28,139 nt of DNA from a virus: positions 1 through 28,139 of IMG/VR virus record IMGVR_UViG_3300027687_000055; one strand, written 5' to 3'. The notes under the pieces were generated by a model. It did not search any database and was not told the origin of the DNA. It worked only from the letters and a program-made list of their open reading frames with translations. The translations under genes and the position numbers were made by a program. Shown here one piece after another: positions 4,184 to 16,830 of this stretch; the stretch's first letter is position 1; each line of letters starts with the position of its first letter.

Positions 4184-6658
4184 ATGATTTTAAGTGGATT
4201 CTACACAAGTATCGAAAGATTGGGGAACAGCCTATTATACCGTGGCTACGATGACGAGGGAAAAAAGATTTCCCATAGAATAAAATACAAACCAACGCTT
4301 TATCTTAAGTCTAAGAAACCCGTAACAGATTGGAAAGCGCTTGATGAAACACCAGTTGAACCTTTGCAGTTCGGTTCAATGTCTGAAGTTAAAGAATTTC
4401 AAAAGTCTTACAAAGGTGTACCTGACTTTTGCCTTTATGGTAATACTCGTCACATTCCTGCGTTTATTCAGAATCAGTTTCCCAATGAAATTGTTTACAA
4501 TCGCAACATGGTCGATGTTGCTTCTTTGGATATTGAAACCGCATATGGTGATGGCTTTCCTGAGGTAGACAATCCTGTCAATCAGATTCTTACGATTGCG
4601 TACAAAAGTTCAAAAGACGACACTTATCGTGTTTGGGGTATGAAACCTTACGATGAAGCAATCACCGCACTTAAGCATTTAAAAATCGAGTATCGTCAGT
4701 TCACTGAAGAATCTTCAATGCTTTCTGCATTCATCGACTATTGGGCAGAACCAGACAATACTCCTGATATCATCACCGGTTGGAATACTCGGTTCTTCGA
4801 TATTCCTTACATGGTAGCTCGAATGGCGTTCTTACTCGGCGAAGAAAAGGTTCGTAATCTTTCACCTTGGCGTAAGATCGAACGTAGGGAAATCTTTATC
4901 AAAGGTCGTCAGCAGATTACTTTTGACATCATGGGTATTCAACACCTTGATTATATGGAACTCTTTAAGAAGTTTGCATATACGTATGGTAATCAGGAAT
5001 CGTATTCGTTGAATCATATTTCAAGTGTAGTACTTGGTGAAAAGAAACTCGACTATTCTGAGGTTGGTACACTTCGTGACTTGTATGATGCAGACTTTCA
5101 AATGTTTGTTGACTACAACATTAAAGACGTTGAGCTCATCGAACGTATGGAAGAGAAGCTTGGCCTTATTACGTTGGTATTGACTATGGCGTATCTCGGT
5201 GGTGTAAACTATCAAGACACACTCGGTACAACCGCGATATGGGACTCAATTATTTTCCGTAGGCTAGCACGATCTAAAGTTGCAATTTTGCCTGCAGTTG
5301 ATCACGCTGCACAGCAGTTTCCTGGAGGTTACGTAAAAGAACCTCACGTAGGAATGCATGATTGGGTAATGTCCTTTGACTTGAATTCTCTTTATCCTAA
5401 TCTCATTGTGCAATACAACATGTCGCCTGAAACTTTAATCGGTGTTACTGATGCTGATGGTGCTAAAGCGTCTAATGGTGCAGTATTTCGTAAAGATAAG
5501 AAAGGTATTATTCCTGAAATTGTTGAAGAGTTGTATGCTAAGCGAGTAAACATTAAAGGTGACATGCTTACAGCTAAACACAAACTTGAAACAATTTCTA
5601 AACGACAACGTAAGGAATACCAACAAACATCTTCTCAGGTCGCACGTCTTGAAACCCTACAAACCGCGATTAAGATTCTTCTTAACTCTCTTTATGGTGC
5701 AATGGGTAACAAATACTTTCGTTACTTTGACATCCGTATTGCCGCAGGGATTACGTTGACTGGCCAAGAGGTTATCAAATATGCTGAAACAAAGGTAAAC
5801 ACTTTTCTTAATGACTTCATTGGCGAAGAAAAAGATCGTGTTATTGCGATGGATACTGATTCACTTTACGTTGGTGTAAGTGATCTAATTGAAAAGTTTA
5901 AGCCTAATAATCCTGTATCGTTCCTCGATGAATTTGGTTCTAAAGCTATTGAACCTATGCTTGATAAAGCCTTTGAAGAATTCGCAATTGCGAGCAATGC
6001 CTTTACAAATCGTATGGTTATGAAACGTGAAGCTATTGCTGATCGTGGTATTTGGACTGCAAAGAAACGCTACATCCTTAATGTACATAACAACGAAGGT
6101 GTTCAATACGCTGAACCTAAGATTAAGATCATGGGTCTAGAATCAGTTAAGTCTTCTACGCCAATGCCGTGTCGTGATGCTATGAGAAACCTATTTAAGG
6201 TTATTGTGACTGGTGATGAAGGTAAAACACAAGAAGCTATTGCGCTTTTCAAAGAACACTTTAAAACTCTTTCACCTGATCAAATCGCTTTCCCTCGTGG
6301 TGTAACTGATGTTGCAGGTTATGCAGACAACCAATTGATTTACCGTAAAGGTACACCTATCCATTGTCGTGGTGCGTTACTCTACAATCACTATACAAAA
6401 GCAAAAGGCTTAGATAAGAAATACCAATTGATTCAAAATGGCGATAAAATCAAGTTTATCTATTTATTAGTTCCTAATGTTATTCAAGAAAATGTAGTTG
6501 CGTTCCCGGATTATTTACCAGACGAATTAGAACTTCATAAATACATCGACTACAACTTACAATTTCAAAAGACCTTTATTGACCCAATGGATATCATACT
6601 CAATGCTATTGGTTGGTCAGCCGAACCTAGAGCGGATTTACAGCAATTCCTATTTTAG
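4184..6658 (+). CDS. 43: gp43 family-B replicative DNA polymerase
   Basis: 824 aa (T4: 898). Exonuclease motifs: DIE at 116-118 (Exo I), NTRFFD with D206 (Exo II), and YNIKD with Y311/D315 (Exo III). Polymerase motifs: A, DLNSLYP with D399; B, KILLNSLYGAMGN beginning K497; C, MDTDS with D557/D559; a KKRY-type segment follows. All proofreading and polymerisation carboxylates are present, so the enzyme should be active. The C-terminal QQFLF resembles a clamp-binding peptide. The gene stands alone after hsp20, with its own promoter at the ATG and no Shine-Dalgarno on the predicted transcript. No intein or intron interrupts it. Confidence 0.97.
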   Translation: MILSGFYTSIERLGNSLLYRGYDDEGKKISHRIKYKPTLYLKSKKPVTDWKALDETPVEPLQFGSMSEVKEFQKSYKGVPDFCLYGNTRHIPAFIQNQFPNEIVYNRNMVDVASLDIETAYGDGFPEVDNPVNQILTIAYKSSKDDTYRVWGMKPYDEAITALKHLKIEYRQFTEESSMLSAFIDYWAEPDNTPDIITGWNTRFFDIPYMVARMAFLLGEEKVRNLSPWRKIERREIFIKGRQQITFDIMGIQHLDYMELFKKFAYTYGNQESYSLNHISSVVLGEKKLDYSEVGTLRDLYDADFQMFVDYNIKDVELIERMEEKLGLITLVLTMAYLGGVNYQDTLGTTAIWDSIIFRRLARSKVAILPAVDHAAQQFPGGYVKEPHVGMHDWVMSFDLNSLYPNLIVQYNMSPETLIGVTDADGAKASNGAVFRKDKKGIIPEIVEELYAKRVNIKGDMLTAKHKLETISKRQRKEYQQTSSQVARLETLQTAIKILLNSLYGAMGNKYFRYFDIRIAAGITLTGQEVIKYAETKVNTFLNDFIGEEKDRVIAMDTDSLYVGVSDLIEKFKPNNPVSFLDEFGSKAIEPMLDKAFEEFAIASNAFTNRMVMKREAIADRGIWTAKKRYILNVHNNEGVQYAEPKIKIMGLESVKSSTPMPCRDAMRNLFKVIVTGDEGKTQEAIALFKEHFKTLSPDQIAFPRGVTDVAGYADNQLIYRKGTPIHCRGALLYNHYTKAKGLDKKYQLIQNGDKIKFIYLLVPNVIQENVVAFPDYLPDELELHKYIDYNLQFQKTFIDPMDIILNAIGWSAEPRADLQQFLF

Positions 6659-6698: not shown

Positions 6699-7112
6699 AT
6701 GAGTAAAGATTGGACACAAGACATTCATGAAATGCATAATCACTATGGCATTCATGAGGCAATGAAAAAACTAAGTAACCAAGAGCTAAAGGCTTTTCTG
6801 CAGTTTCGTGTTAATTTCTTAAAAGAGGAATTAACAGAATTGCAAGAAGCAACTAAGACTGGTATACCAATAGACGCGGAGGAAACAGTTGATGCACTCG
6901 TTGATTTATGTGTTGTAGCAATTGGCACTTTGGATCTATTTGATGTAGATGGGCATAAAGCGTGGAACGAAGTTCTATCAGCTAATATGTTAAAAATGGT
7001 AGGAGTTAAAGAAACACGGCCTAACCCTTATGGGTTACCAGACTTGATCAAGCCAGATGGTTGGCAGTCGCCAAATCACAAAGGAAATCACGGAAACATT
7101 AGTGGAATATAA
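6699..7112 (+). CDS. MazG-like nucleotide pyrophosphohydrolase
   Basis: 137 aa. An N-terminal segment DWTQDIHEMHNHYGIHEA, then a helix with the metal-binding acidic pattern EELTELQE, then AEETVDALVDLCVVAIGTL giving the second acidic pair, and a C-terminal PNPYGLPDLIKPDGWQ with a Gly/His-rich tail. This is the all-alpha NTP-PPase (MazG) arrangement; members split NTPs or dNTPs to NMP plus PPi. In a phage that appears to make hydroxymethyl-dCMP, one candidate substrate is dCTP, doing the job of T4 gp56, which is not seen in this window; the sequence does not resemble gp56, so this is inference. The gene heads the modification block and overlaps the next gene. Confidence 0.85.
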   Translation: MSKDWTQDIHEMHNHYGIHEAMKKLSNQELKAFLQFRVNFLKEELTELQEATKTGIPIDAEETVDALVDLCVVAIGTLDLFDVDGHKAWNEVLSANMLKMVGVKETRPNPYGLPDLIKPDGWQSPNHKGNHGNISGI

Positions 7113-8548: not shown

Positions 8549-9232
8549 ATGTTACAGACAGTAAAAGACATACGAAATCTGTTTAAATCAAAATGCATAA
8601 ACGATCTTTATGTTACAGATAAAACAGGTGTAAAAACTATAGAAATAGTTAACGCTTCTTTTGAAGCAGATGAACCCACCATCTTTGGTAAACCTAATCA
8701 ACACTATATCAAGCGCGAACTAGATTGGTATCTATCTGAATCTCTTAACGTAAACGATATTGAAGGTGATGTTCCTAAAATTTGGCAAATGATATCCGAT
8801 AAAGGTGGTAAGATTAATTCTAACTATGGTTACCTTACGCTTAGTTCTAAGAATCATAATCAGTATCAGAATTGTGTAATGGAACTTCGTAAAAATCCTG
8901 ACTCACGCCGTGCAGTTATGGTTTACACCCGTCCAACAATTTGGAACGAATACGATGAAAACGGCATGTCTGACTTTATTTGCACTAATGCAGTTCAATA
9001 CATGATCCGCGACAACAAACTCGAAGTAGTTGTTCAAATGCGTAGTAACGATGTAGTTTTTGGTTATCGCAACGATTTTGCTTGGCAAAAGTACATGGCT
9101 GATATGGTGTGTCACGAACTGAAAGTAGATCTTGGTAAAATCTATTGGAATGTTGGTTCACTGCACGTATACGAAAGACACTTCAATTTAATTAAAAGCA
9201 ATCATGAAATACAAGACGAAAAGAATGGATAA
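8549..9232 (+). CDS. 42: gp42 dCMP hydroxymethylase
   Basis: 227 aa (T4: 246). The fold family is thymidylate synthase, but residues follow T4 gp42: VTDKTGVKTIEIVNASFEADEP, RELDWY with E57, PDSRRAVMVYTRP, DFICTNAVQYMIRD with catalytic C145, and QMRSNDVVFGYRNDFAWQKY. At the position where thymidylate synthases have the uracil-specific Asn, this protein has Asp176 (T4 Asp179), the residue that switches specificity to dCMP. The enzyme transfers the methylene of methylene-tetrahydrofolate to dCMP to give 5-hydroxymethyl-dCMP. It has its own promoter and is followed by NMAD1-like, oxygenase-like, deaminase and AGT genes. An automatic label of thymidylate synthase would be misleading. Confidence 0.93.
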   Translation: MLQTVKDIRNLFKSKCINDLYVTDKTGVKTIEIVNASFEADEPTIFGKPNQHYIKRELDWYLSESLNVNDIEGDVPKIWQMISDKGGKINSNYGYLTLSSKNHNQYQNCVMELRKNPDSRRAVMVYTRPTIWNEYDENGMSDFICTNAVQYMIRDNKLEVVVQMRSNDVVFGYRNDFAWQKYMADMVCHELKVDLGKIYWNVGSLHVYERHFNLIKSNHEIQDEKNG

Positions 9233-9569
9233 AGAATCAATTAAAATTATTAATGAAGCAATAGCTTTGCAATTGCGCAAATCAGACGATTACCAAAACA
9301 AAGAATCGTGGATCAAACAGGCAGATTACTACCCACGCGGTGTTCTTACTATATTAGACATTGTTTACGCTAAAGTTTTACGAATGTATTCTGTAGTTGA
9401 AGCAATGGAAAAAGATCCTAACTACGAACAAAACTTTGAATCAATTGAAGATTCTTGTAAAGACTTAATTAATTATGCATCCTTTATTGGCGCTTATACC
9501 CGCGGCGGCGTCGAAGGCCAAAAGCCTAACAAAGATTTTTTAAACCGAGAAAAAGCTAATGAGTACTAA
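9225..9569 (+). CDS. NMAD1-like (nucleotide modification associated) protein
   Basis: 114 aa from ATG 9225, which overlaps the gene 42 stop by 8 nt; an ATG at 9204 would overlap by 29 nt. The segment YYPRGVLTILDIVYAKVLRM, then ESIEDSCKDLINYASFIGAY and RGGVEGQKPN, resembles the DUF1599 / Nucleotide Modification Associated Domain 1 family, a helical family predicted from gene neighbourhoods to work with base-modifying enzymes. The Asp/Glu pattern in the helices (ESIEDSCKDL) is MazG-like, so nucleotide binding is plausible. Direct coupling to gene 42 fits a role in modified-nucleotide metabolism. The family call is moderate and the biochemical role unknown. Confidence 0.6.
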   Translation: MDKESIKIINEAIALQLRKSDDYQNKESWIKQADYYPRGVLTILDIVYAKVLRMYSVVEAMEKDPNYEQNFESIEDSCKDLINYASFIGAYTRGGVEGQKPNKDFLNREKANEY

Positions 9570-10194
9570 TTATAAAACAATAGAACCATTCAAACCTATA
9601 CGCTTCTATCAGTTCGATAGCGATGCTAGTAAGGCAGAGTATTTTGAAATATGTGATTGGTTGACGCGCCACAGATATCTTGAAAAAGACGACCAAGGTA
9701 TGTTAACCGATTATCATACACAAGAGCCAGAGTTTGATACAGATGATAACCTAAAAAGATGTGAGATATGGCATAAGTTTGTAATAAAACATATGGGAAC
9801 TAATTTAGACCAATGGGCTAAAGACCAAGGTGCAAAGGATTTATTTTTAGAAAATATATGGACTCAACAAACCTCCAAGCAGGCATACCATGGATTACAT
9901 AATCATGGCTCTTGGGAAATTGGCGCCAACTGGTCTTTCGTATGGTATATTGAATGTGATCCTAAAGTGCACGAACCAACTAGATATTGTACTTATCCAA
10001 ATGCAGAGGAAGAATATAAAAATGATATTAAAGAAGGTAGATTTATTCTTTGGCCTTCTGACTTATTACATACCCAATTACCAAGCTTTGTAGAAAAAAG
10101 AAGGTGTATTCTTTCAGGCAATCTTCACCTAATAGGATTAGAAGATAACGTTAGCAGGGTGATGAATTTAAGAGATACATTTAATGGGCAATAA
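9559..10194 (+). CDS. 2OG-Fe(II) oxygenase-like protein
   Basis: 211 aa. The C-terminal half has the layout of phage 2-oxoglutarate/Fe(II) oxygenases: IWTQQTSKQAYHGLHNHGSW (H111, H114, H116 as candidate first metal ligands), WSFVWYIECDP as a core strand, then EGRFILWPSDLLHTQLP with H171 as the distal ligand, and KRRCILSGNL with R181/R182 as the likely 2OG-carboxylate anchor. The N-terminal 90 residues are not recognised. The second metal ligand (Asp/Glu) is not obvious, so activity is uncertain. It sits between gene 42 and cd with 11-nt overlaps on both sides, which raises the possibility that it acts on nucleotides or DNA; protein hydroxylation is an equally good alternative. Confidence 0.6.
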   Translation: MSTNYKTIEPFKPIRFYQFDSDASKAEYFEICDWLTRHRYLEKDDQGMLTDYHTQEPEFDTDDNLKRCEIWHKFVIKHMGTNLDQWAKDQGAKDLFLENIWTQQTSKQAYHGLHNHGSWEIGANWSFVWYIECDPKVHEPTRYCTYPNAEEEYKNDIKEGRFILWPSDLLHTQLPSFVEKRRCILSGNLHLIGLEDNVSRVMNLRDTFNGQ

Positions 10195-10618
10195 GTGGCA
10201 TAAACGATATATCGATCTTGCTCGCGATATTGCGCAATGGTCGAAAGATCCTTCAACGTCTTGCGGAGCAATCTTCGTAGGAACTTCAGGACAAATTTTA
10301 TCTCAAGGATATAACGGCTTCCCTAGAGGTATCGATGACGACCCGTTGGATTACGACGATAGAGAAACTAAATACGAAAAGATAGTCCATGCAGAAATGA
10401 ATGGAATCTATAACGCTTCTAGAACAGGCGTTTCGTTAGAAGGTTCTACGTGCTATGTTCATGGATTGCCTTGCTGCCACGAATGCTCAAAAGCTTTAAT
10501 TCAAGTTGGTGTGAAAGAAGTGGTGATGCATAAATCTGCGGATCCGCGATGGAGCAAATCGTGCACACTCGCTAAGAATCTTTTTGACGAAGCTGGCATA
10601 AAAATTACTTACTTATAA
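10184..10618 (+). CDS. cd: dCMP deaminase
   Basis: 144 aa. Cytidine/deoxycytidylate deaminase zinc motif: VHAEMN with H69 and the proton-shuttle E71, and PCCHECSKALI with the C98/C101 pair. The N-terminus has RYIDLARDIAQWSKDPSTSCGAIFV and GYNGFPRGIDDDP, typical of dCMP deaminases including T4 Cd (193 aa; this one is shorter). It converts dCMP to dUMP for dTTP synthesis and so competes with gp42 for dCMP; the T4 enzyme is tuned allosterically by dCTP/dTTP. Its start overlaps the oxygenase-like gene. No thymidylate synthase is seen in the window, so dUMP would be used by a host enzyme or by a gene outside it. Confidence 0.94.
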   Translation: MGNKWHKRYIDLARDIAQWSKDPSTSCGAIFVGTSGQILSQGYNGFPRGIDDDPLDYDDRETKYEKIVHAEMNGIYNASRTGVSLEGSTCYVHGLPCCHECSKALIQVGVKEVVMHKSADPRWSKSCTLAKNLFDEAGIKITYL

Positions 10619-10634
10619 AACAATAAATAAAATC

Positions 10635-10901
10635 ATGGATATTACAATAGTACAACAGCCAAAGGAAGTGTATAGCAAAGTCATATACACCTTTGAAGCA
10701 AAAATAGAAGATGAAGTCTATTCTGTAGCTCGCCACGAAGATGATAGTGGAGCGAAATTATACATCAACGATTCTAAAGGCCAAGACGTAGATTATGTTG
10801 TCTATGATATCATGGAAAAACTTATTCTGCACGATGAGTTTAATTACGGTGATAGAACCCAATGGTTAGAAAATAAAGTTATTTCAGTGGAAACAAAATG
10901 A
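10635..10901 (+). CDS. Hypothetical protein (88 aa)
   Basis: Not recognised. It is a soluble, acidic, beta-rich N-terminal half (KVIYTFEAKIEDEVYSVARHED) with a helical C-terminal part containing VDYVVYDIMEKLILHDEFNYGD. No cysteine clusters, nucleotide motif or membrane segment is visible. It starts 16 nt after cd, and its stop overlaps the next small ORF (ATGA). Position suggests operon membership only. Confidence 0.6.
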   Translation: MDITIVQQPKEVYSKVIYTFEAKIEDEVYSVARHEDDSGAKLYINDSKGQDVDYVVYDIMEKLILHDEFNYGDRTQWLENKVISVETK

Positions 10902-10978
10902 TACCAATTGATATGACAATAGCGTTATTTGTAGCACTCGGTGTAGCCGTGTGCTGGTTAATGGCAATAGGAAGGTAA
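10898..10978 (+). CDS. 26-aa single-span membrane peptide
   Basis: A 26-codon ORF beginning with an ATGA overlap of the previous stop and ending 4 nt before agt. The peptide is MIPIDM followed by a continuous hydrophobic stretch (TIALFVALGVAVCWLMAIG) and a final Arg, enough for one transmembrane helix. The overlap with its upstream neighbour and the SD (GGAAGG, 10970-10975) for agt at its 3' end fit a real coupled gene. T4 has many such small membrane peptides, often modulating host envelope or exclusion functions. No specific role can be assigned. Confidence 0.5.
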   Translation: MIPIDMTIALFVALGVAVCWLMAIGR

Positions 10979-10982
10979 AATT

Positions 10983-12188
10983 ATGAAAAGGATAGCGATT
11001 ATCATGGGCCGAGGAATTGAAGGTTGCGGCGTAACAAAATTTACAATAGAGCAATGTAAATTCTATGAAAAACACGGGTATTCTTATAGTGTGTACGCAT
11101 CTAAAGATAAATCTTGGACACGAAAGAATGCACACAAAACTGACAACATCCATCAGCTAAAATTTGCTAAAGACGAAGAAGTGAATAGCATGATAGAAGA
11201 AGTGAATAAAGCAGATATTGCTATTATTAACTCTTTACCTGCAATGAGTTTAAAGGAAGAAGCGATTGAAAACTTTAAACGGATGTTAAGTGAAATAAAA
11301 ATACCAGTAGCGTTGATTCAGCATGACCACGCTATGCAATCTATTCGCCGTAATGGTGCGTTAGATGAAGCTATTCAAAAAGCTAATATTATATTTGTAC
11401 ATTCAACAACCAACGACTTTGCAAAGTACGCTGGTAATTTAGTTGGACCAAAGGTAGATTTGTTTGGTGCTGAAGAAGGAACGCCCATTGTAGCATTTCA
11501 GCCAGGAATGTATTTCGATGAGATAAAAGAAAAATATTGGAAAAACGGTTGTGATGATGAGCTACACCATAAGTGGATTGGTAGAACTACGTCATGGAAA
11601 GGTTATCAAGAAATGTTTAAATTTCATAATGGTTATTTAATGCCAAATGAAATGCTTACTACGTATGAAGGCATCGAACGTTCGCCTGCTTTCTTAGGTT
11701 TTAGAGAGCTATCTGAATTTGAAAATTTGCTTGCAGAAGACCCTAATGAATACGATTTGTCTGAATCTTATGGATCAAATGTTCAGGTATTTGGTCCATA
11801 CATTCAAGAAGAAATGCTTGAGAGAATGTCAAAGGTGGGCTTTGGCTATCAACTTTCTCGTATGAAAGAACACTTTATTCAACGATCAGTTGAGTATACG
11901 CACTGCGAAGTAGTATGCACTGGTACAATTCCTGTCTTTAATAAAAAGTACGGTGATGCTTGCACCCACCGTCACTATGGAAAAAAGTTTACTGATTGTG
12001 AAAACTCAGGAACAATCTGGTTTGATGAAAATAATTTTGATGAAACATTAAACCAAATGCTAGATCTTCGAGAGTCACCTGAAAAAAGAAATGAAATGAG
12101 GAATCAGGCCTACGAATTTTATAAACTACACCAAGATGCAGACTATACGTTTGCTGAAATAATGAAAAACATAGAAAACAAAATATGA
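10983..12188 (+). CDS. agt: DNA alpha-glucosyltransferase (T4 AGT-like)
   Basis: 401 aa, against 400 aa for T4 AGT, with the same block order: MGRGIEGCGVTKFTIEQ at the N-terminus (8-24), ASKDKSWTR, AIINSLPAMS, LIQHDHAMQSIRRN (111-124), WIGRTTSWKGYQEMFKFH (198-215), EGIERSPAF, EEMLERMSKVGFGYQLS (276-292), RSVEYTHCE with CTGTIPVF (301-319), and SGTIWFDENNFD. T4 AGT is a GT-B enzyme that moves glucose from UDP-glucose to 5-hydroxymethylcytosine in DNA with alpha linkage, shielding the DNA from restriction and from the phage's own cytosine-specific nucleases. A good SD (GGAAGG, spacing 7) precedes the ATG. No beta-glucosyltransferase is present here. With gene 42 upstream, the phage DNA is probably glucosylated hmC. 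Confidence 0.93.
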   Translation: MKRIAIIMGRGIEGCGVTKFTIEQCKFYEKHGYSYSVYASKDKSWTRKNAHKTDNIHQLKFAKDEEVNSMIEEVNKADIAIINSLPAMSLKEEAIENFKRMLSEIKIPVALIQHDHAMQSIRRNGALDEAIQKANIIFVHSTTNDFAKYAGNLVGPKVDLFGAEEGTPIVAFQPGMYFDEIKEKYWKNGCDDELHHKWIGRTTSWKGYQEMFKFHNGYLMPNEMLTTYEGIERSPAFLGFRELSEFENLLAEDPNEYDLSESYGSNVQVFGPYIQEEMLERMSKVGFGYQLSRMKEHFIQRSVEYTHCEVVCTGTIPVFNKKYGDACTHRHYGKKFTDCENSGTIWFDENNFDETLNQMLDLRESPEKRNEMRNQAYEFYKLHQDADYTFAEIMKNIENKI

Positions 12189-12406
12189 GTGCACACCTAA
12201 AAGGAATATTGAAAAAACTAGAAGGTCAACGAGACATCGAACTCGCTGATTTAAATACTTACTTGACAAACCAAGTAGCAATAGGCGAACACCCAGACAT
12301 TGGTGTTGAAATCGAACTAAAGATAGAAAAAGTCGACGCGTTAGATTCTAAAATAGAAACTATACAAAAATATTTTAACGATAGCCAAATGGACCTATTA
12401 GTATGA
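12185..12406 (+). CDS. Small conserved phage protein (73 aa)
   Basis: A helical small protein: GILKKLEGQRDIELADLNTY, then IGEHPDIGVEIELKIEKVD and LDSKIETIQKYFND. The heptad-like spacing suggests a coiled coil. I recall similar short proteins in marine T4-like phages but know no function. Start and stop overlap the neighbouring genes by 4 nt each (ATGA), linking agt to the methyltransferase-like gene in a single translational chain. Confidence 0.65.
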   Translation: MSAHLKGILKKLEGQRDIELADLNTYLTNQVAIGEHPDIGVEIELKIEKVDALDSKIETIQKYFNDSQMDLLV

Positions 12407-13593
12407 GTTATAGTTATGCATCAATAGTTCCTCTTATTGGAGGTGAAACAATCGCAATGGAGAATGTTTTTGGTAAAAGACCTAAGTACATTTTATCATA
12501 TACACCATTCGCAGCGAATGATTCACAGATGTTAGAACACTACAAAAACGAAGTACCATACCATGTCATCGACGAAGGTAGTGGTAGAACCGATTATGTT
12601 GATGTTGTGAATGCGGTGTGTCCATGTGCTGGTCTATCTTCGCTAAGTCCATCATCCTCTACAGACAACAAAGCAAATGATTGGATGGTTGAATCAGCAA
12701 AATATGTTTTAGGATCTGTAAAGCCTAAAGTCCTTTGGGGAGAAAACGCTCCAAGGCTTGCATCTAAAATGGGTGCACCTATTGTTGAAAAGCTAAGAAA
12801 GATCGCTAAAGAAAACGGCTATACCATGTCGTTATATAAGACAAAATCTAAATTGCACGGACTAAGTCAAACCCGCGATAGAGCATTCTATTTCTTTTGG
12901 CAAGGTAATCGTATTCCTCATATGCAGTTTTTCAAAAGACCTCACGAAAAGATTGAAGATACTATTCGGAATGCTTTTGTTTCTGCAGATGATCCAATGA
13001 ACGAGCTTACGAATAAAAATAAACCTTCAGATAATCCTTTCTATAAATACGTATTGGAAGAACTTGAAGGCGGAATTACGCACAAACAATTTCAAGAAAA
13101 GATCGAAAGGACAACGAATCCACTCGATTATTTAGAAAACCGCGGTATTGAATATGACGAAGTTTCTGAATGGATGGCACTGAACGGGTTTGACAAACAA
13201 GCTACACGCTGTTTAGAGATTCATAAGAAACTCAAATCTGGCGGTAACATCATGAGAAAAACTACAGAAATTCCAAAGGATTACATTGGTGCTTTTGTAG
13301 GACATATGCCTACATGTTTAACACACCCAGATGAAGATCGGTATCTTACAATTCGCGAATGCTTAGCAATTATGAAAATGCCTTCTGATTTTCAGCTTCA
13401 AGGAGGAAGAAAAAACCTAAATATGATATGTCAAAACGTGCCAGTAACTACTGCAGAAGACATGGCAAAGTCCATTCTAGACTGGCTTGGAGGCAATCTA
13501 GACACCAGAGAGGCTGATTTTGCAGTGTTTGACAATAAGGCATATACCGTAGATTATGAAGAGGCAGCACAGACCATTGAATCGTTCATTTAA
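12403..13593 (+). CDS. Dcm-like DNA cytosine C5-methyltransferase
   Basis: 396 aa. C5-methyltransferase motifs in order: I, VPLIGGETIAMENVFG (9-24) for AdoMet binding; IV, CPCAGLSSLSP with catalytic C75; VI, WGENAP with E114; VIII, QTRDRAFYF (156-164); a variable region (about 170-300) with no recognised target motif; then LTIRECLAIMKMP and NVPVTTAEDMAKSIL as IX/X. Motif IV has PCAG instead of PCQG. The nucleophile and Glu are kept, so catalysis on cytosine C5 is plausible. In a phage whose cytosines are apparently already substituted at C5, the substrate is unclear: host DNA, leftover cytosines, or an altered reaction. It overlaps its upstream neighbour and is followed by the uvsX promoter. 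Confidence 0.82.
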   Translation: MSYSYASIVPLIGGETIAMENVFGKRPKYILSYTPFAANDSQMLEHYKNEVPYHVIDEGSGRTDYVDVVNAVCPCAGLSSLSPSSSTDNKANDWMVESAKYVLGSVKPKVLWGENAPRLASKMGAPIVEKLRKIAKENGYTMSLYKTKSKLHGLSQTRDRAFYFFWQGNRIPHMQFFKRPHEKIEDTIRNAFVSADDPMNELTNKNKPSDNPFYKYVLEELEGGITHKQFQEKIERTTNPLDYLENRGIEYDEVSEWMALNGFDKQATRCLEIHKKLKSGGNIMRKTTEIPKDYIGAFVGHMPTCLTHPDEDRYLTIRECLAIMKMPSDFQLQGGRKNLNMICQNVPVTTAEDMAKSILDWLGGNLDTREADFAVFDNKAYTVDYEEAAQTIESFI

Positions 13594-13655: not shown

Positions 13656-14720
13656 ATGTCACTACTAGAAAAACTAAAAAAATCAAGCCGCACAGCCGGT
13701 GCTGAAATTCTTTCAGAATCAAAGTTCTTTTCCGAAAAGGAAATGACTTCAACCTCAGTGCCGATGATTAACGTCGCACTCTCTGGTTCCACTAAAGGTG
13801 GTATCTCATCAGGGCTAACAGTGTTAGCAGGTCCAAGTAAACACTTTAAAACATCGTTTGCCCTTTTGATGGCAGGTGCTTATATGAAGAAGCATAAGGA
13901 TGCAGTTCTCATGTTCTATGATTCAGAGTTTGGATCACCACAATCATACTTTGAAAGTTTCGGTATCGATACAACTCGTGTACTACACACACCTGTTACT
14001 AACATTGAAGAACTTAAATTTGATTTGGTTCACCAACTTACTGAAATCGATCGTAAGGATAAAGTAATGGTAGTGATTGATTCTATTGGTAATATTGCAT
14101 CGAAGAAGGAAATCGATGATGCTGAGAATATGAAGTCAGTTGCAGATATGACACGAGCAAAAGCTCTTAAGGGTCTATTCAGAATGATTACACCGTTCTT
14201 GACTCTAAAGGATATTCCACTTCTTGCAGTAAATCATACGTATCAAACACAAGAAATGTTCTCAAGGGCCGTAGTGTCTGGTGGAACAGGTGTCATGTAT
14301 TCTGCTAATGATGTATGGATTATCGGCCGTCGCCAAGAAAAGACTGGCACTGAAATCTCAGGTTATCACTTCATCATTAATATCGAGAAGTCTCGCTTTG
14401 TAAAGGAGAAGTCTAAGATCCCAATTAGCGTAAGTTGGGACGGAGGTATCGAGAAGTGGTCAGGTCTATTAGATCTTGCCCTTGAAACAGGCTATGTTGT
14501 TAAACCTAAAAATGGTTGGTATATGGCAATGAATCCTGCAACACAGGAAGAATTGAGTGGAAACCTTAGAGCAGCACAGACAATGACTGAAGAATTCTGG
14601 ACCAAAGTCTTTAGCTCTACTGACTTTGAAACAGCGATTGAAAACCGATACAAGGTTGCTCACGGCGCAATGCTAGAAGAGGATAAAGTCGAATATAAAC
14701 CATCTGTTGAAAATGATTGA
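13656..14720 (+). CDS. uvsX: UvsX RecA-like recombinase
   Basis: 354 aa (T4: 391). RecA-fold features: SVPMINVALSGSTKGGISSG before the P-loop GPSKHFKTS (59-67, the unusual T4-type Walker A), Walker B MVVIDS with D142, and AVNHTYQTQEMFSR plus SGGTGVMYSANDVWIIG matching the DNA-binding and ATP-cap regions of UvsX. It forms filaments on ssDNA for strand exchange, repair and recombination-dependent replication, together with UvsY and gp32 (not in this window). The C-terminal tail is acidic, as in T4. It starts a new transcription unit and overlaps the next gene by 8 nt. Confidence 0.96.
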   Translation: MSLLEKLKKSSRTAGAEILSESKFFSEKEMTSTSVPMINVALSGSTKGGISSGLTVLAGPSKHFKTSFALLMAGAYMKKHKDAVLMFYDSEFGSPQSYFESFGIDTTRVLHTPVTNIEELKFDLVHQLTEIDRKDKVMVVIDSIGNIASKKEIDDAENMKSVADMTRAKALKGLFRMITPFLTLKDIPLLAVNHTYQTQEMFSRAVVSGGTGVMYSANDVWIIGRRQEKTGTEISGYHFIINIEKSRFVKEKSKIPISVSWDGGIEKWSGLLDLALETGYVVKPKNGWYMAMNPATQEELSGNLRAAQTMTEEFWTKVFSSTDFETAIENRYKVAHGAMLEEDKVEYKPSVEND

Positions 14721-15033: not shown

Positions 15034-16354
15034 TGAAGAATATTGCAGAAAAGCATTACCTCATGTAAAGGCAGAATACTTTGAAAACGAGCATAAGCCA
15101 GTGTATGAGCTTATCATTTCCTTTTTACAGAATTATAATAAGCTTCCAAACTCTGCAGCGCTAGAAGTCGAGTTCCAAAAGTCTGATTATATAAATAAAA
15201 GCAATCGTAATGATATTCATAATCTCATTGTTGACTTGAAAAATTATGAAGAAGTGGAACGAGAATGGCTACTGAACTCAACCGAGGAATGGTGTAAGCA
15301 AAGAGCAGTATATCTTGCAATCATAAAATCAATTGGTATCATAGATGGTAAGGAAGAGGAACTTACTGATGGTGCTATCCCTGGTATTTTATCAAAGGCG
15401 CTAAGTGTGTCTTTTGATACTAATGTTGGTCACGATTATTTTGAAAACTCAGACAAACGATTTGATTTCTATCATTTACAGGAAGACAAAATACCATTTG
15501 ATCTTTCTATGTTTAATACAATTACCAAAGGTGGTGTCTCAAATAAGACACTTAACATTATACTTGCAGGTACTGGTGTGGGAAAAAGCTTGGCGATGTG
15601 TCACTTTGCTTCTGCCAATCTCGCCGCTGGACAGAACGTGCTTTATATCACTTTGGAAATGGCAGAAGAAAGGATTGCTGAACGAATCGATGCAAACCTA
15701 TTTGATGTGCCGATTGATCAACTTGAGAGCTTGCCTAAGCAACTTTTTGATACGAAGGTCAATAAACTCAAAGAAAAAACTAGAGGCAAGCTTATCATCA
15801 AAGAATATCCTACGGCAACAGCCCACGTAGGTCACTTCCGTGCACTCTTAGATGAGCTTAAGCTTAAGAAAGACTTTAAGCCAGATGTAATTTATATTGA
15901 CTATCTTAATATTTGTGGTAGTGCACGGATAAAAGGCCTTAGTGGTTCAGTAAATACTTACTCCCTCATTAAAGCTATTGCCGAAGAATTACGTGGTCTT
16001 GCAGTTGAACACAATGTACCTATCTGGTCAGCGACTCAAGTTACACGTACTGGATTTGGCAATACCGATGTAGAACTTACTGATACTTCAGAATCATTTG
16101 GTTTACCAGCAACTGCAGACTTAATGGTTGCACTGATATCTACTGAACAACTTGAAGGTATGAATCAGCTTATGGTGAAACAATTGAAGAATCGCTATAA
16201 TGATCCTACACAAGATAAACGGTTTGTTGTTGGTATTGATCGTGCTAAAATGCGCTTATACGATGTAGAAGATTCTGCTCAAACACTATCGAGCGATGAA
16301 ATTACTACATCCGCGCCTGTAAACAATAACGACTTCTCAGCATTTAAGATATAG
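14990..16354 (+). CDS. 41: gp41 replicative DNA helicase
   Basis: 454 aa (T4: 475). DnaB-family: the N-terminal domain includes KAEYFENEHKPVYELI, then SVSFDTNVGHDYFE, Walker A AGTGVGKS (193-200), YITLEMAEERIAERIDANLFDV, Walker B VIYIDYLNICGSARI with D304, and LPATADLMVALISTEQ near the end, all following T4 gp41. The hexamer unwinds the lagging-strand template 5'-3' and recruits the primase. The start overlaps the previous gene by 44 nt; the first conserved block begins within 30 residues, so this start is adopted. The stop shares a base with the next GTG (TAGTG). Confidence 0.95.
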   Translation: MTNLQTLILKTITNDEEYCRKALPHVKAEYFENEHKPVYELIISFLQNYNKLPNSAALEVEFQKSDYINKSNRNDIHNLIVDLKNYEEVEREWLLNSTEEWCKQRAVYLAIIKSIGIIDGKEEELTDGAIPGILSKALSVSFDTNVGHDYFENSDKRFDFYHLQEDKIPFDLSMFNTITKGGVSNKTLNIILAGTGVGKSLAMCHFASANLAAGQNVLYITLEMAEERIAERIDANLFDVPIDQLESLPKQLFDTKVNKLKEKTRGKLIIKEYPTATAHVGHFRALLDELKLKKDFKPDVIYIDYLNICGSARIKGLSGSVNTYSLIKAIAEELRGLAVEHNVPIWSATQVTRTGFGNTDVELTDTSESFGLPATADLMVALISTEQLEGMNQLMVKQLKNRYNDPTQDKRFVVGIDRAKMRLYDVEDSAQTLSSDEITTSAPVNNNDFSAFKI

Positions 16355-16830
16355 TGTTTATTACGGTTATAGGTTCTGGATCAAAGAAACGCGAAATGTC
16401 AGGCGACATTGCTCATTGGGTTGGACTACATCTTATGCCGCGGCTACAGGATAAGATTTTTGTCGATATACATTTAATTAATAACCTTGATGAAAAGGAT
16501 GGTCTATCAGGTGATTGCATATGGGAAGACGAATCGTGTAATCGACCTCGTGAATTTACAGTGCGTGTTAACTCTTCGCAATCTTTAACTGATATGCTTT
16601 CAACTGTAGCGCATGAAATGGTGCATGTAAAGCAGTATGCTCGAGGTGAATTGAAAGACTTTTCGGGCAATGTTCATTTGTGTAAGTGGAAAGGTAAACC
16701 TTTTGCGTGGGAAAAAATAAACTACTATGATCACCCTTGGGAGATTGAAGCACACGGCCGCGAGCGTGGTTTATTTATACGCTGGTTTGAACAAAGCCAA
16801 TGGAAAAAGTGTAAATGGGCGAATTATTAA
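16354..16830 (+). CDS. SprT-like zinc metalloprotease
   Basis: 158 aa from a GTG overlapping the gene 41 stop. HExxH motif in STVAHEMVHVKQYARGEL (H87, E88, H91), a candidate third ligand in HPWEIEAHGRERG (E132), and an N-terminal part with the strand-like RLQDKIFVDIHLI. This layout is that of small SprT/Spartan-like or minimal gluzincin-type peptidases carried by many T4-like marine phages. Cellular Spartan cuts DNA-protein crosslinks; position after the helicase would suit a similar DNA-linked role, but the target is unknown. There is no signal peptide, so it acts in the cytoplasm. Confidence 0.75.
   Translation: MFITVIGSGSKKREMSGDIAHWVGLHLMPRLQDKIFVDIHLINNLDEKDGLSGDCIWEDESCNRPREFTVRVNSSQSLTDMLSTVAHEMVHVKQYARGELKDFSGNVHLCKWKGKPFAWEKINYYDHPWEIEAHGRERGLFIRWFEQSQWKKCKWANY

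Follow-up and report, generated by a model that had tools for sequence, protein, structure and literature searches.

We read a gene block on a genome fragment of a marine phage as a modular cassette for glycosylated hydroxymethylcytosine (hmC) with an invariant enzyme of the C5-cytosine methyltransferase fold (the MTase-like protein). Sequence comparison makes it probable that the block joins a T4-type cytosine-replacement pathway to this extra, dedicated enzyme as a functional third component. The window analyzed is the whole 28,139-nt stretch (IMG/VR virus record IMGVR_UViG_3300027687_000055, positions 1 to 28,139), a genome fragment and not a whole phage (Table 1). The original prediction had placed a dCMP hydroxymethylase (HMase), an alpha-glucosyltransferase (AGT) and a dCMP deaminase in one block, which our annotation bears out. 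It had not seen the adjacent MTase-like gene, which is the least variable and the most unusual gene of the block.

Table 1. Genes in and around the modification block
Feature	Position	Strand	Evidence and remarks
gp43 DNA polymerase	4184..6658	+	tblastn matches to annotated DNA polymerases, top Phage C48C1 (47.6%); upstream boundary of replication module
MazG-type NTP pyrophosphohydrolase (PF01503)	6699..7112	+	PF01503 E 6.1e-8; phrog_671
dCMP hydroxymethylase (HMase), T4 gp42 family	8549..9232	+	PF00303 E 1.2e-25; catalytic C145, specificity D176
Small conserved protein adjoining HMase	9204..9569	+	Possible Nmad1/DUF1599-like; PF07659 E 0.022, below cut-off
2OG-Fe(II) oxygenase-like protein	9559..10194	+	PF13759 E 9.9e-5, below cut-off; phrog_81
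dCMP deaminase	10184..10618	+	PF00383 E 2.8e-21; phrog_174
DNA alpha-glucosyltransferase (AGT), T4 AGT family, GT-B	10983..12188	+	PF11440 E 7.5e-81
73-aa protein, phrog_1811	12185..12406	+	4-nt (ATGA) overlap with AGT stop and with MTase-like start
C5-cytosine methyltransferase-fold (MTase-like) protein	12403..13593	+	PF00145 match starting at residue 40 (E 1e-18); invariant last gene of cassette; SAM-site motifs I and X remodelled
uvsX recombinase	13656..14720	+	Named from T4-type ORF and gene order, not family search

Hydroxymethylase, glucosyltransferase and precursor genes

As judged by homology and active-site residues, the HMase gene is a T4 gp42-type dCMP hydroxymethylase. Its 227-aa product is 54% identical to T4 gp42 and nearer to it than to thymidylate synthases: the top PDB match is T4 dCMP hydroxymethylase (1b49/1b5d, E 4e-78), and the top thymidylate synthase reaches only 1.4e-13. 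The Asp176 and C145 signature originally read from the sequence is confirmed by alignment. T4 C148, D179 and E60 correspond to C145, D176 and E57 (conserved in 58/58 sequences of the family alignment of relatives), and D176 puts Asp at the thymidylate-synthase Asn177 position alongside the catalytic Cys.

The AGT (401 aa) is 41% identical to T4 AGT and, as had been claimed, collinear with it over its full length (residues 3-392 against 3-394 of 1xv5, E 1.8e-89; PHROG alpha-glucosyltransferase, 9.4e-102). The PF11440 match is also full-length. Every catalytic, glucose-contacting or UDP-contacting residue checked is kept (G15, H114, D115, H116, H140, R204, E306 and E311, T4 numbering).

Alpha-glucosyl-hmC DNA is the best, straightforward prediction from this pair of genes, and conservation of the pair and its catalytic residues in relatives favors that part of the original prediction. 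Its suggestion of pure alpha modification is not established, because the window covers only part of a genome and relatives carry a beta-glucosyltransferase (beta-GT)-like gene beside AGT. This gene adjoins AGTs of the same type in L007, L019 and L023/L045 (the L007 AGT is 94% identical to that of the window), and in a close relative of the window it sits just upstream of AGT.

A similarity search of the window and of two long relatives, 146 kb and 105 kb in length, found no match to T4 gp1 (the hm-dCMP kinase), gp56, denA, denB or bgt at an E limit of 0.1, which diverged genes could escape. The claimed absence of beta-GT holds for the 28-kb window, which is a genome fragment. Since genes 1, 56, denA and denB were undetected, the precursor side is no copy of T4's. 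The MazG-type gene, which recurs upstream of HMase in relatives, is a candidate dCTPase/dUTPase in the gp56 role; one study reports PF01503 together with thymidylate synthase and dCMP deaminase on modified contigs (PMC8670742). psbA was also missing from the two long relatives, which gives no indication of a cyanobacterial host.

Both ORFs of the HMase/AGT pair lie on the + strand where originally placed. That no homologue of gene 1, denA or denB was detected could mean that the pair is inactive or that virion DNA holds ordinary dC. We consider this very unlikely: both ORFs are intact, the tested catalytic residues are invariant in dozens of relatives, and the same block holds the dCMP deaminase and MazG genes.

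A TET-like origin of hmC was rejected. The only oxygenase of the block is PF13759-like and below cut-off, is not of the TET/JBP family, and is missing in most relatives, occurring only in window-type contigs, L065 and L125; it is a putative accessory to the block. The small ORF after HMase has a counterpart kept next to HMase in many relatives, and the 73-aa protein is restricted to window-type relatives.

Linkage and exchange of sugar genes

We collected 106 distinct MTase-like loci from IMG/VR; 80 loci of CmoX, another enzyme of the C5-MTase fold, on similar T4-like contigs served as a matched control. HMase is present in 25/25 MTase-like loci with at least 9 kb upstream and in 34/35 with at least 5 kb, with a sugar gene in all of these. 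HMase, dCMP deaminase and glycosyltransferase (GT) genes are absent from all 80 control loci. For loci of at least 9 kb, HMase plus a sugar gene occurs in 25/25 MTase-like and 0/25 CmoX loci (Fisher 1.6e-14), a count that overstates independence because the marine-clade loci share ancestry.

In most loci the MTase-like start codon overlaps the stop of the gene before it or lies directly against it (offset -4 in 37/106, -11 in 21, -1 in 14). uvsX adjoins the gene in most loci and marks the downstream cassette boundary in most marine relatives. L190-L192 carry the same cassette next to gp44/gp62 rather than uvsX, so the unit moves. The MTase-like, HMase and sugar-gene combination recurs outside the marine clade in Pseudoalteromonas phage XG4, S-TIM5 cyanophages and Bacillus phage G (gp301/gp306/gp313/gp317/gp319, with Asp in gp319).

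Most marine relatives had been said to be without the HMase/AGT pair. This is true of isolates: those bearing AGT in the phage collection are nearly all enterobacterial, and cyanophages contribute only five records, all from the S-TIM group and weakly matching. It fails for uncultured marine T4-like phages, among which the pair is common.

Among marine relatives, one set of sugar genes replaces another and the MTase-like protein stays. Cassettes carry glucose, inositol-, galactofuranose- or uronate/pentose-type sets. Across 75 contigs and six types, we counted 11 changes of cassette type along the MTase-like tree and 13 along the uvsX tree (raw counts), so the MTase-like protein appears not to be tied to one sugar. 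XG4 and L193 have nucleotidyltransferase/kinase and GT genes, and a TET-associated glycosyltransferase (TAGT, PF20691) occurs in some cassettes. GTc1 of the inositol cassette was considered as a glycosyltransferase and is not supported (no Pfam match, weak AF2 model with pLDDT 67, no fold match). GTc1 and its partner c2 are fused in phrog_17781.

This exchange raises the question of whether glucose is in fact the sugar that the window AGT transfers. His114 is not kept in all AGTs: position 114 is Val in 14/14 SDR-linked AGTs, each beside SDR epimerase genes. Against a non-glucose donor, the window AGT retains H114, H116 and H140, reported as glucose contacts (PMC6024577), and it stands alone in a cassette without sugar-nucleotide genes. 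A non-glucose sugar is accordingly improbable here.

A C5-methyltransferase fold with a rebuilt cofactor site

All 30 MTase-like family members examined match PF00145. Cys75, E114-N115, R158 and R160 are invariant among them, which argues that catalysis is selected for. The protein has the fold with motifs IV (PC), VI (ENV) and VIII (QxRxR), retaining the catalytic Cys, ENA (ENAP), QxRxR and VP motifs. It departs from C5-MTases at the SAM site: in all members motif I (DLFxGxGG) is replaced by PLIGG and the motif X Asn by Gln (Q344). The canonical adenosine-binding acid positions, N39-[D/E]40 and D57, are mostly kept.

Foldseek matched the protein to M.HhaI, M.HaeIII and CmoX (the top PDB match), and to phage G gp301 (TM 0.76); the catalytic Cys, ENA and R-x-R are also kept in phage G. 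A PDB phmmer search with the single sequence P0003 found no match; matches came only with the family profile and begin at residue 45 or later. Dcm gave no useful hhalign alignment to the family (E 0.09 against the family HMM). The C48C1 'DNA methyltransferase' does not match the MTase-like profile and was rejected as a relative.

CmoX is the DNA cytosine C5-carboxymethyltransferase of Synechococcus phage S-B43 (PDB 8yf3), defined by SPPC and Arg350 (PMC12783734). The two proteins share the fold and an altered SAM-site residue at motif X, and both occur in T4-like phages of one kind with similar replication genes nearby. We reject membership of the MTase-like protein in the CmoX family, since it has VCPC and Gln344 in place of SPPC and Arg350. 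CmoX also has motif I TFAGGGG against PLIGG, and its loci are without HMase and sugar genes.

Fold, PF00145 membership and the retained adenosine-binding positions would fit a conventional 5mC methylase, SAM-dependent and sequence-specific, whose role is to shield restriction sites and whose presence here reflects chance or synteny. This is unlikely given the changes in motifs I and X and the HMase/sugar association in separate phage groups, against 0/80 CmoX loci. Its TRD-like region is also about as conserved as the remainder (0.72 versus 0.73-0.85), unlike that of diversifying restriction-evasion methylases.

The altered cofactor site, and a start overlapping the preceding sugar gene that suggests coupled synthesis, could instead indicate an adaptor that has lost catalysis and still flips bases, either to offer hmC to the glycosyltransferase or to mark phage DNA. 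We hold this to be about equally unlikely: the catalytic Cys, ENA and R-x-R are invariant in 30/30 members and persist in phage G, T4 AGT functions without such a partner, and the protein outlasts sugar-gene swaps.

Our preferred reading is an active third component. In the proposed pathway, the MazG-like protein and dCMP deaminase would lower dCTP and reshape the dCMP pool; the gp42-type enzyme, by homology and residues, would convert dCMP to hydroxymethyl-dCMP, and hmC would enter DNA at replication. AGT, on the same grounds, would use UDP-glucose to glucosylate hmC in alpha linkage. The MTase-like protein would flip cytosine or hmC out of DNA and attack C6 via Cys75, independently of the sugar used, because it is kept while sugar genes are swapped. 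It most likely acts at C5 of the cytosine ring of phage DNA. We slightly favor a role in finishing C that was left unmodified, with SAM or an analogue of it, and rank editing or derivatizing of the 5-hydroxymethyl group slightly below.

Several points count against the third-component reading. The hm-dCMP kinase was not detected in the window or the two long relatives. The HMase loci of T4, RB69 and freshwater contigs L098-L104 do without the MTase-like protein (T4 and RB69 are not known to carry it and gave no matches in our search). Replacement of all C by hmC would leave an ordinary C5 methylase without substrate.

C5-MTases show thiol addition to hmC in bench chemistry (PMC7176277), and their dehydroxymethylation of hmC has been discussed (PMC11347137), so the scaffold is capable of such reactions. 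By analogy, the protein might act on hmC without ordinary methyl transfer, through a C6-cysteine adduct from which the 5-hydroxymethyl is removed, exchanged or derivatized at chosen sites, giving a second, new base beside glycosyl-hmC. We regard this as a doubtful possibility.

Relation to known systems and significance

The closest parallel is T4 gene 42 with alpha-gt (Tequatrovirus T4), with full-length homologues and catalytic residues kept. The window differs in that a single cassette unites these genes with those for dCMP deaminase and for a C5-MTase-like protein missing in T4. RB69 arabinosyl-hmC and the pentose modification of Shewanella phage Thanatos also join hmC to a non-glucose sugar, and the available parts of these reports describe no MTase-like partner (PMC6024577, PMC12838424); the XG4 and L193 genes are comparable to them by architecture only. 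The TET/JBP pathway likewise pairs a C5-MTase-fold protein with a glycosyltransferase, including the TAGT of some cassettes here. In the window, by contrast, a gp42-type enzyme would make hmC before replication, and the 2OG oxygenase is neither TET nor conserved. MetaGPA cytosine-modification contigs share an Asp177 thymidylate-synthase homologue, dCMP deaminase and PF01503; the partner there is a 5hmC carbamoyltransferase, and a C5-MTase-like component is not named in the available part of that study (PMC8670742). Our search of the open-access literature found no paper naming this component of the cassette.

The analysis broadens the predicted range of glycosylated hmC DNA beyond enterobacterial T-even phages to include a widespread marine T4-like group, where the pathway looks like a mobile cassette whose sugar genes can be exchanged. 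It also draws attention to an invariant enzyme that belongs to a famous fold, has a rebuilt cofactor site and travels with the pathway in unrelated phages. This enzyme may reveal a new DNA-modification step, and XG4, S-TIM5 and phage G are cultured carriers. If it finishes unmodified C, it would explain how DNA that escapes hydroxymethylation is protected. If it modifies hmC, phages would reach hypermodified DNA by a new route, and the protein might serve as a tool enzyme.

The hydroxymethylase and glucosyltransferase genes

The block around the dCMP hydroxymethylase (HMase) and DNA alpha-glucosyltransferase (AGT) genes is bigger and more interesting than the original prediction reported. It contains a third component, missed earlier: a gene for a protein with a C5-cytosine methyltransferase fold (MTase-like protein).

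The closest solved structure to the HMase ORF is T4 dCMP hydroxymethylase (E 4e-78; best thymidylate synthase only 1.4e-13), with 122/225 identities to T4 gp42. Its C145, D176 and E57 align with T4 C148, D179 and E60 and are kept in 58/58 sequences of an alignment with relatives, which bears out the hydroxymethylase signature first read from D176 and C145. The dCMP deaminase does lie in the same block. Collinearity of the second gene with T4 AGT also held: the match covers residues 3 to 392 (1.8e-89, 159/390 identities). T4 AGT contacts glucose through H114, H116 and H140, phosphate through G15 and R204, and ribose through E311 (PMC6024577); the window AGT keeps all six, as well as D115 and E306.

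Features of the window and of related loci (L numbers)
Feature	Location	Evidence or context
MazG-like NTP pyrophosphohydrolase	6699-7112	HMase/AGT block
dCMP hydroxymethylase (T4 gp42 type)	8549-9232	Thymidylate-synthase-family protein; PDB match and residues
dCMP deaminase	10184-10618	HMase/AGT block
DNA alpha-glucosyltransferase	10983-12188	Pfam AGT 7.5e-81
MTase-like protein, 396 aa	12403-13593 (between AGT and uvsX)	PF00145 C5-cytosine methylase 1e-18
Small HExxH-motif protein	16354-16830	Weak resemblance to DUF6782 metallopeptidases (E 0.0012, sub-threshold)
Beta-GT-like gene	L007 (upstream of AGT), L019, L023/L045 6713-7873	PF09198 1.2e-9; phrog_7922 9.7e-22 for L045
S-TIM5 gp076	L025 8775-9611	Annotated thymidylate synthase; Asp at Asn177 position
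Phage G gp319	L198 2449-3495	Annotated thymidylate synthase; Asp at Asn177 position
uvsX of HMase-bearing contig	L100 7065-9400	Interrupted by 289-aa ORF with NUMOD3 motif, likely an inserted homing endonuclease gene
Sugar set: AGT alone	Window type	
Sugar set: AGT, NAD epimerase, UDP-glucose dehydrogenase		
Sugar set: AGT, kinase/HAD-like protein, cytidylyltransferase		
Sugar set: TET-associated glycosyltransferase (TAGT)		
Sugar set: inositol-1-phosphate synthase and two further proteins (fused in phrog_17781), replacing AGT	L068, L069, L075, L079, L105, L120, L187-L189, L192	
Sugar set: UDP-galactopyranose mutase and weakly GT-like protein	L077, L109, L114, L115	PF03275 9.5e-54 in L077

Of 50,697 phage-isolate records, 628 contain an AGT relative, and nearly all of these are enterobacterial; cyanophages are represented only by five S-TIM-group records with a weak partial match. 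A 2010 survey confined alpha-gt to T-even types and placed gene 42 in no cyanophage (PMC2993671). One scan of uncultured marine T4-like contigs gave 23 loci with the pair (72-100% AGT identity), and many more were reached via the neighbouring gene. The claim that most marine T4-like relatives lack the pair thus stands for isolates and fails for uncultured contigs, where the pair is common.

Pure alpha modification was put too firmly, since the IMG/VR record is a virus fragment (28,139 bp) and a beta-glucosyltransferase (BGT)-like gene adjoins AGT in three marine relatives, in one of which the AGT is 94% identical; the gene was assigned to PF09198 on the L045 copy and elsewhere by clustering with that copy. 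These pairs are notable because, in a 2026 paper, the two GT types co-occurred in no phages but T4 and a few from Escherichia (PMC13216743).

Linkage of the MTase-like gene to the hydroxymethylcytosine pathway

The MTase-like gene belongs with the hydroxymethylcytosine (hmC) pathway. We split 106 distinct MTase-like loci by available upstream length: HMase and a sugar gene were present in 25/25 loci with at least 9 kb and 34/35 with at least 5 kb. As a matched control, the identical pipeline was run on 80 loci of CmoX, a related cytosine carboxymethyltransferase, from similar T4-like contigs. It detected gp43 in 15/80, uvsX in 21/80 and gp41 in 41/80, but HMase, deaminase and AGT, BGT, TAGT or other sugar genes in 0/80 each. 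For loci with at least 9 kb the comparison is 25/25 against 0/25 (Fisher 1.6e-14, a value that overstates independence, as marine-clade loci are related).

Independent support comes from other loci and phages. In L190-L192, the cassette (HMase, deaminase, sugar and MTase-like genes) adjoins gp44/gp62, not uvsX. Pseudoalteromonas phage XG4 has consecutive genes for HMase (with Asp), a nucleotidyltransferase, two GT-like proteins and the MTase-like protein. S-TIM5 carries AGT (PF11440 2.2e-9), an Asp-bearing 'thymidylate synthase' with the catalytic Cys and the MTase-like gene, at separate genomic sites. Bacillus phage G holds gp301 (family HMM match 9.4e-36), alpha-GTs gp306 and gp313, dCMP deaminase gp317 and Asp-bearing gp319 within ~15 kb; its second thymidylate synthase has the usual Asn. 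By this residue, S-TIM5 gp076 and phage G gp319 are probably dCMP hydroxymethylases. In most loci the MTase-like gene begins within, or directly after, the gene before it, and in the window two ATGA overlaps join AGT, orf12185 and the MTase-like gene.

CmoX and the cassette both lie near gp43/uvsX/gp41 of T4-like phages. No co-occurrence was found between the CmoX loci (L199-L278) and the MTase-like loci; they may be alternative modification systems.

Fold and proposed role of the MTase-like protein

PF00145 also matches 30/30 tested relatives; in the window protein the match begins only at residue 40. The AlphaFold2 model (pLDDT 87, pTM 0.85) resembles the PDB structures of CmoX (8yf3), M.HhaI and M.HaeIII (TM 0.48-0.57), and phage G gp301 is by far the top viral model match (E 6.7e-22, TM 0.76; runner-up 7.8e-14, TM 0.55). 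Catalytic Cys75, ENA(114-116), R158 and R160 are invariant in the family, motif I reads PLIGG in place of DLFxGxGG, and Gln (ICQNVP; phage G AQGVP) stands where motif X normally has Asn (IGNAVP). Most profile matches to PDB methylases start past motif III. By our reading of the alignment, N39-[D/E]40 and D57 correspond to the acids that bind adenosine in canonical enzymes. Because these acids are mostly kept though SAM-side motifs changed, the cofactor pocket looks rebuilt, not lost.

In the proposed pathway, the MazG-like protein and dCMP deaminase would shape the nucleotide pool, and the gp42-type enzyme, from homology and residues, would make hm-dCMP. Similarity searches of the window and two long relatives found no gene for the hm-dCMP kinase step. 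The hmC would then be incorporated into DNA, AGT would add alpha-glucose, as its homology and residues predict, and the MTase-like enzyme would target cytosine rings in this DNA via a Cys-C6 mechanism. It could finish any C left unmodified, using SAM or an analogue; this option has our slight preference, given that the pocket seems to retain its adenosine side. Alternatively, it may act on hmC: in vitro, C5-MTases can carry out thiol addition and formaldehyde-driven hydroxymethylation (PMC7176277) and dehydroxymethylation of hmC (PMC11347137).

Interchangeable sugar genes

The sugar-gene sets lie between the dCMP deaminase and MTase-like genes, and their content differs among relatives. With sugars named from enzyme families, an inositol-type DNA decoration is conceivable where inositol-1-phosphate synthase is present, and UDP-galactopyranose mutase suggests a galactofuranose-type one. 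Residue 114 of AGT is Val in place of His in 14/15 epimerase-adjacent copies and His in 34/34 others, which fits a likely change of donor sugar. The Val114 AGTs (L082, L083, L087, L133, L138 and similar) all adjoin the NAD epimerase, often with UDP-glucose dehydrogenase.

Across 75 contigs with six cassette types, the MTase-like tree requires at least 11 changes of type and the uvsX tree at least 13. By this measure the MTase-like protein follows the phage about as closely as a core gene, and whatever it does is expected to be independent of the sugar.
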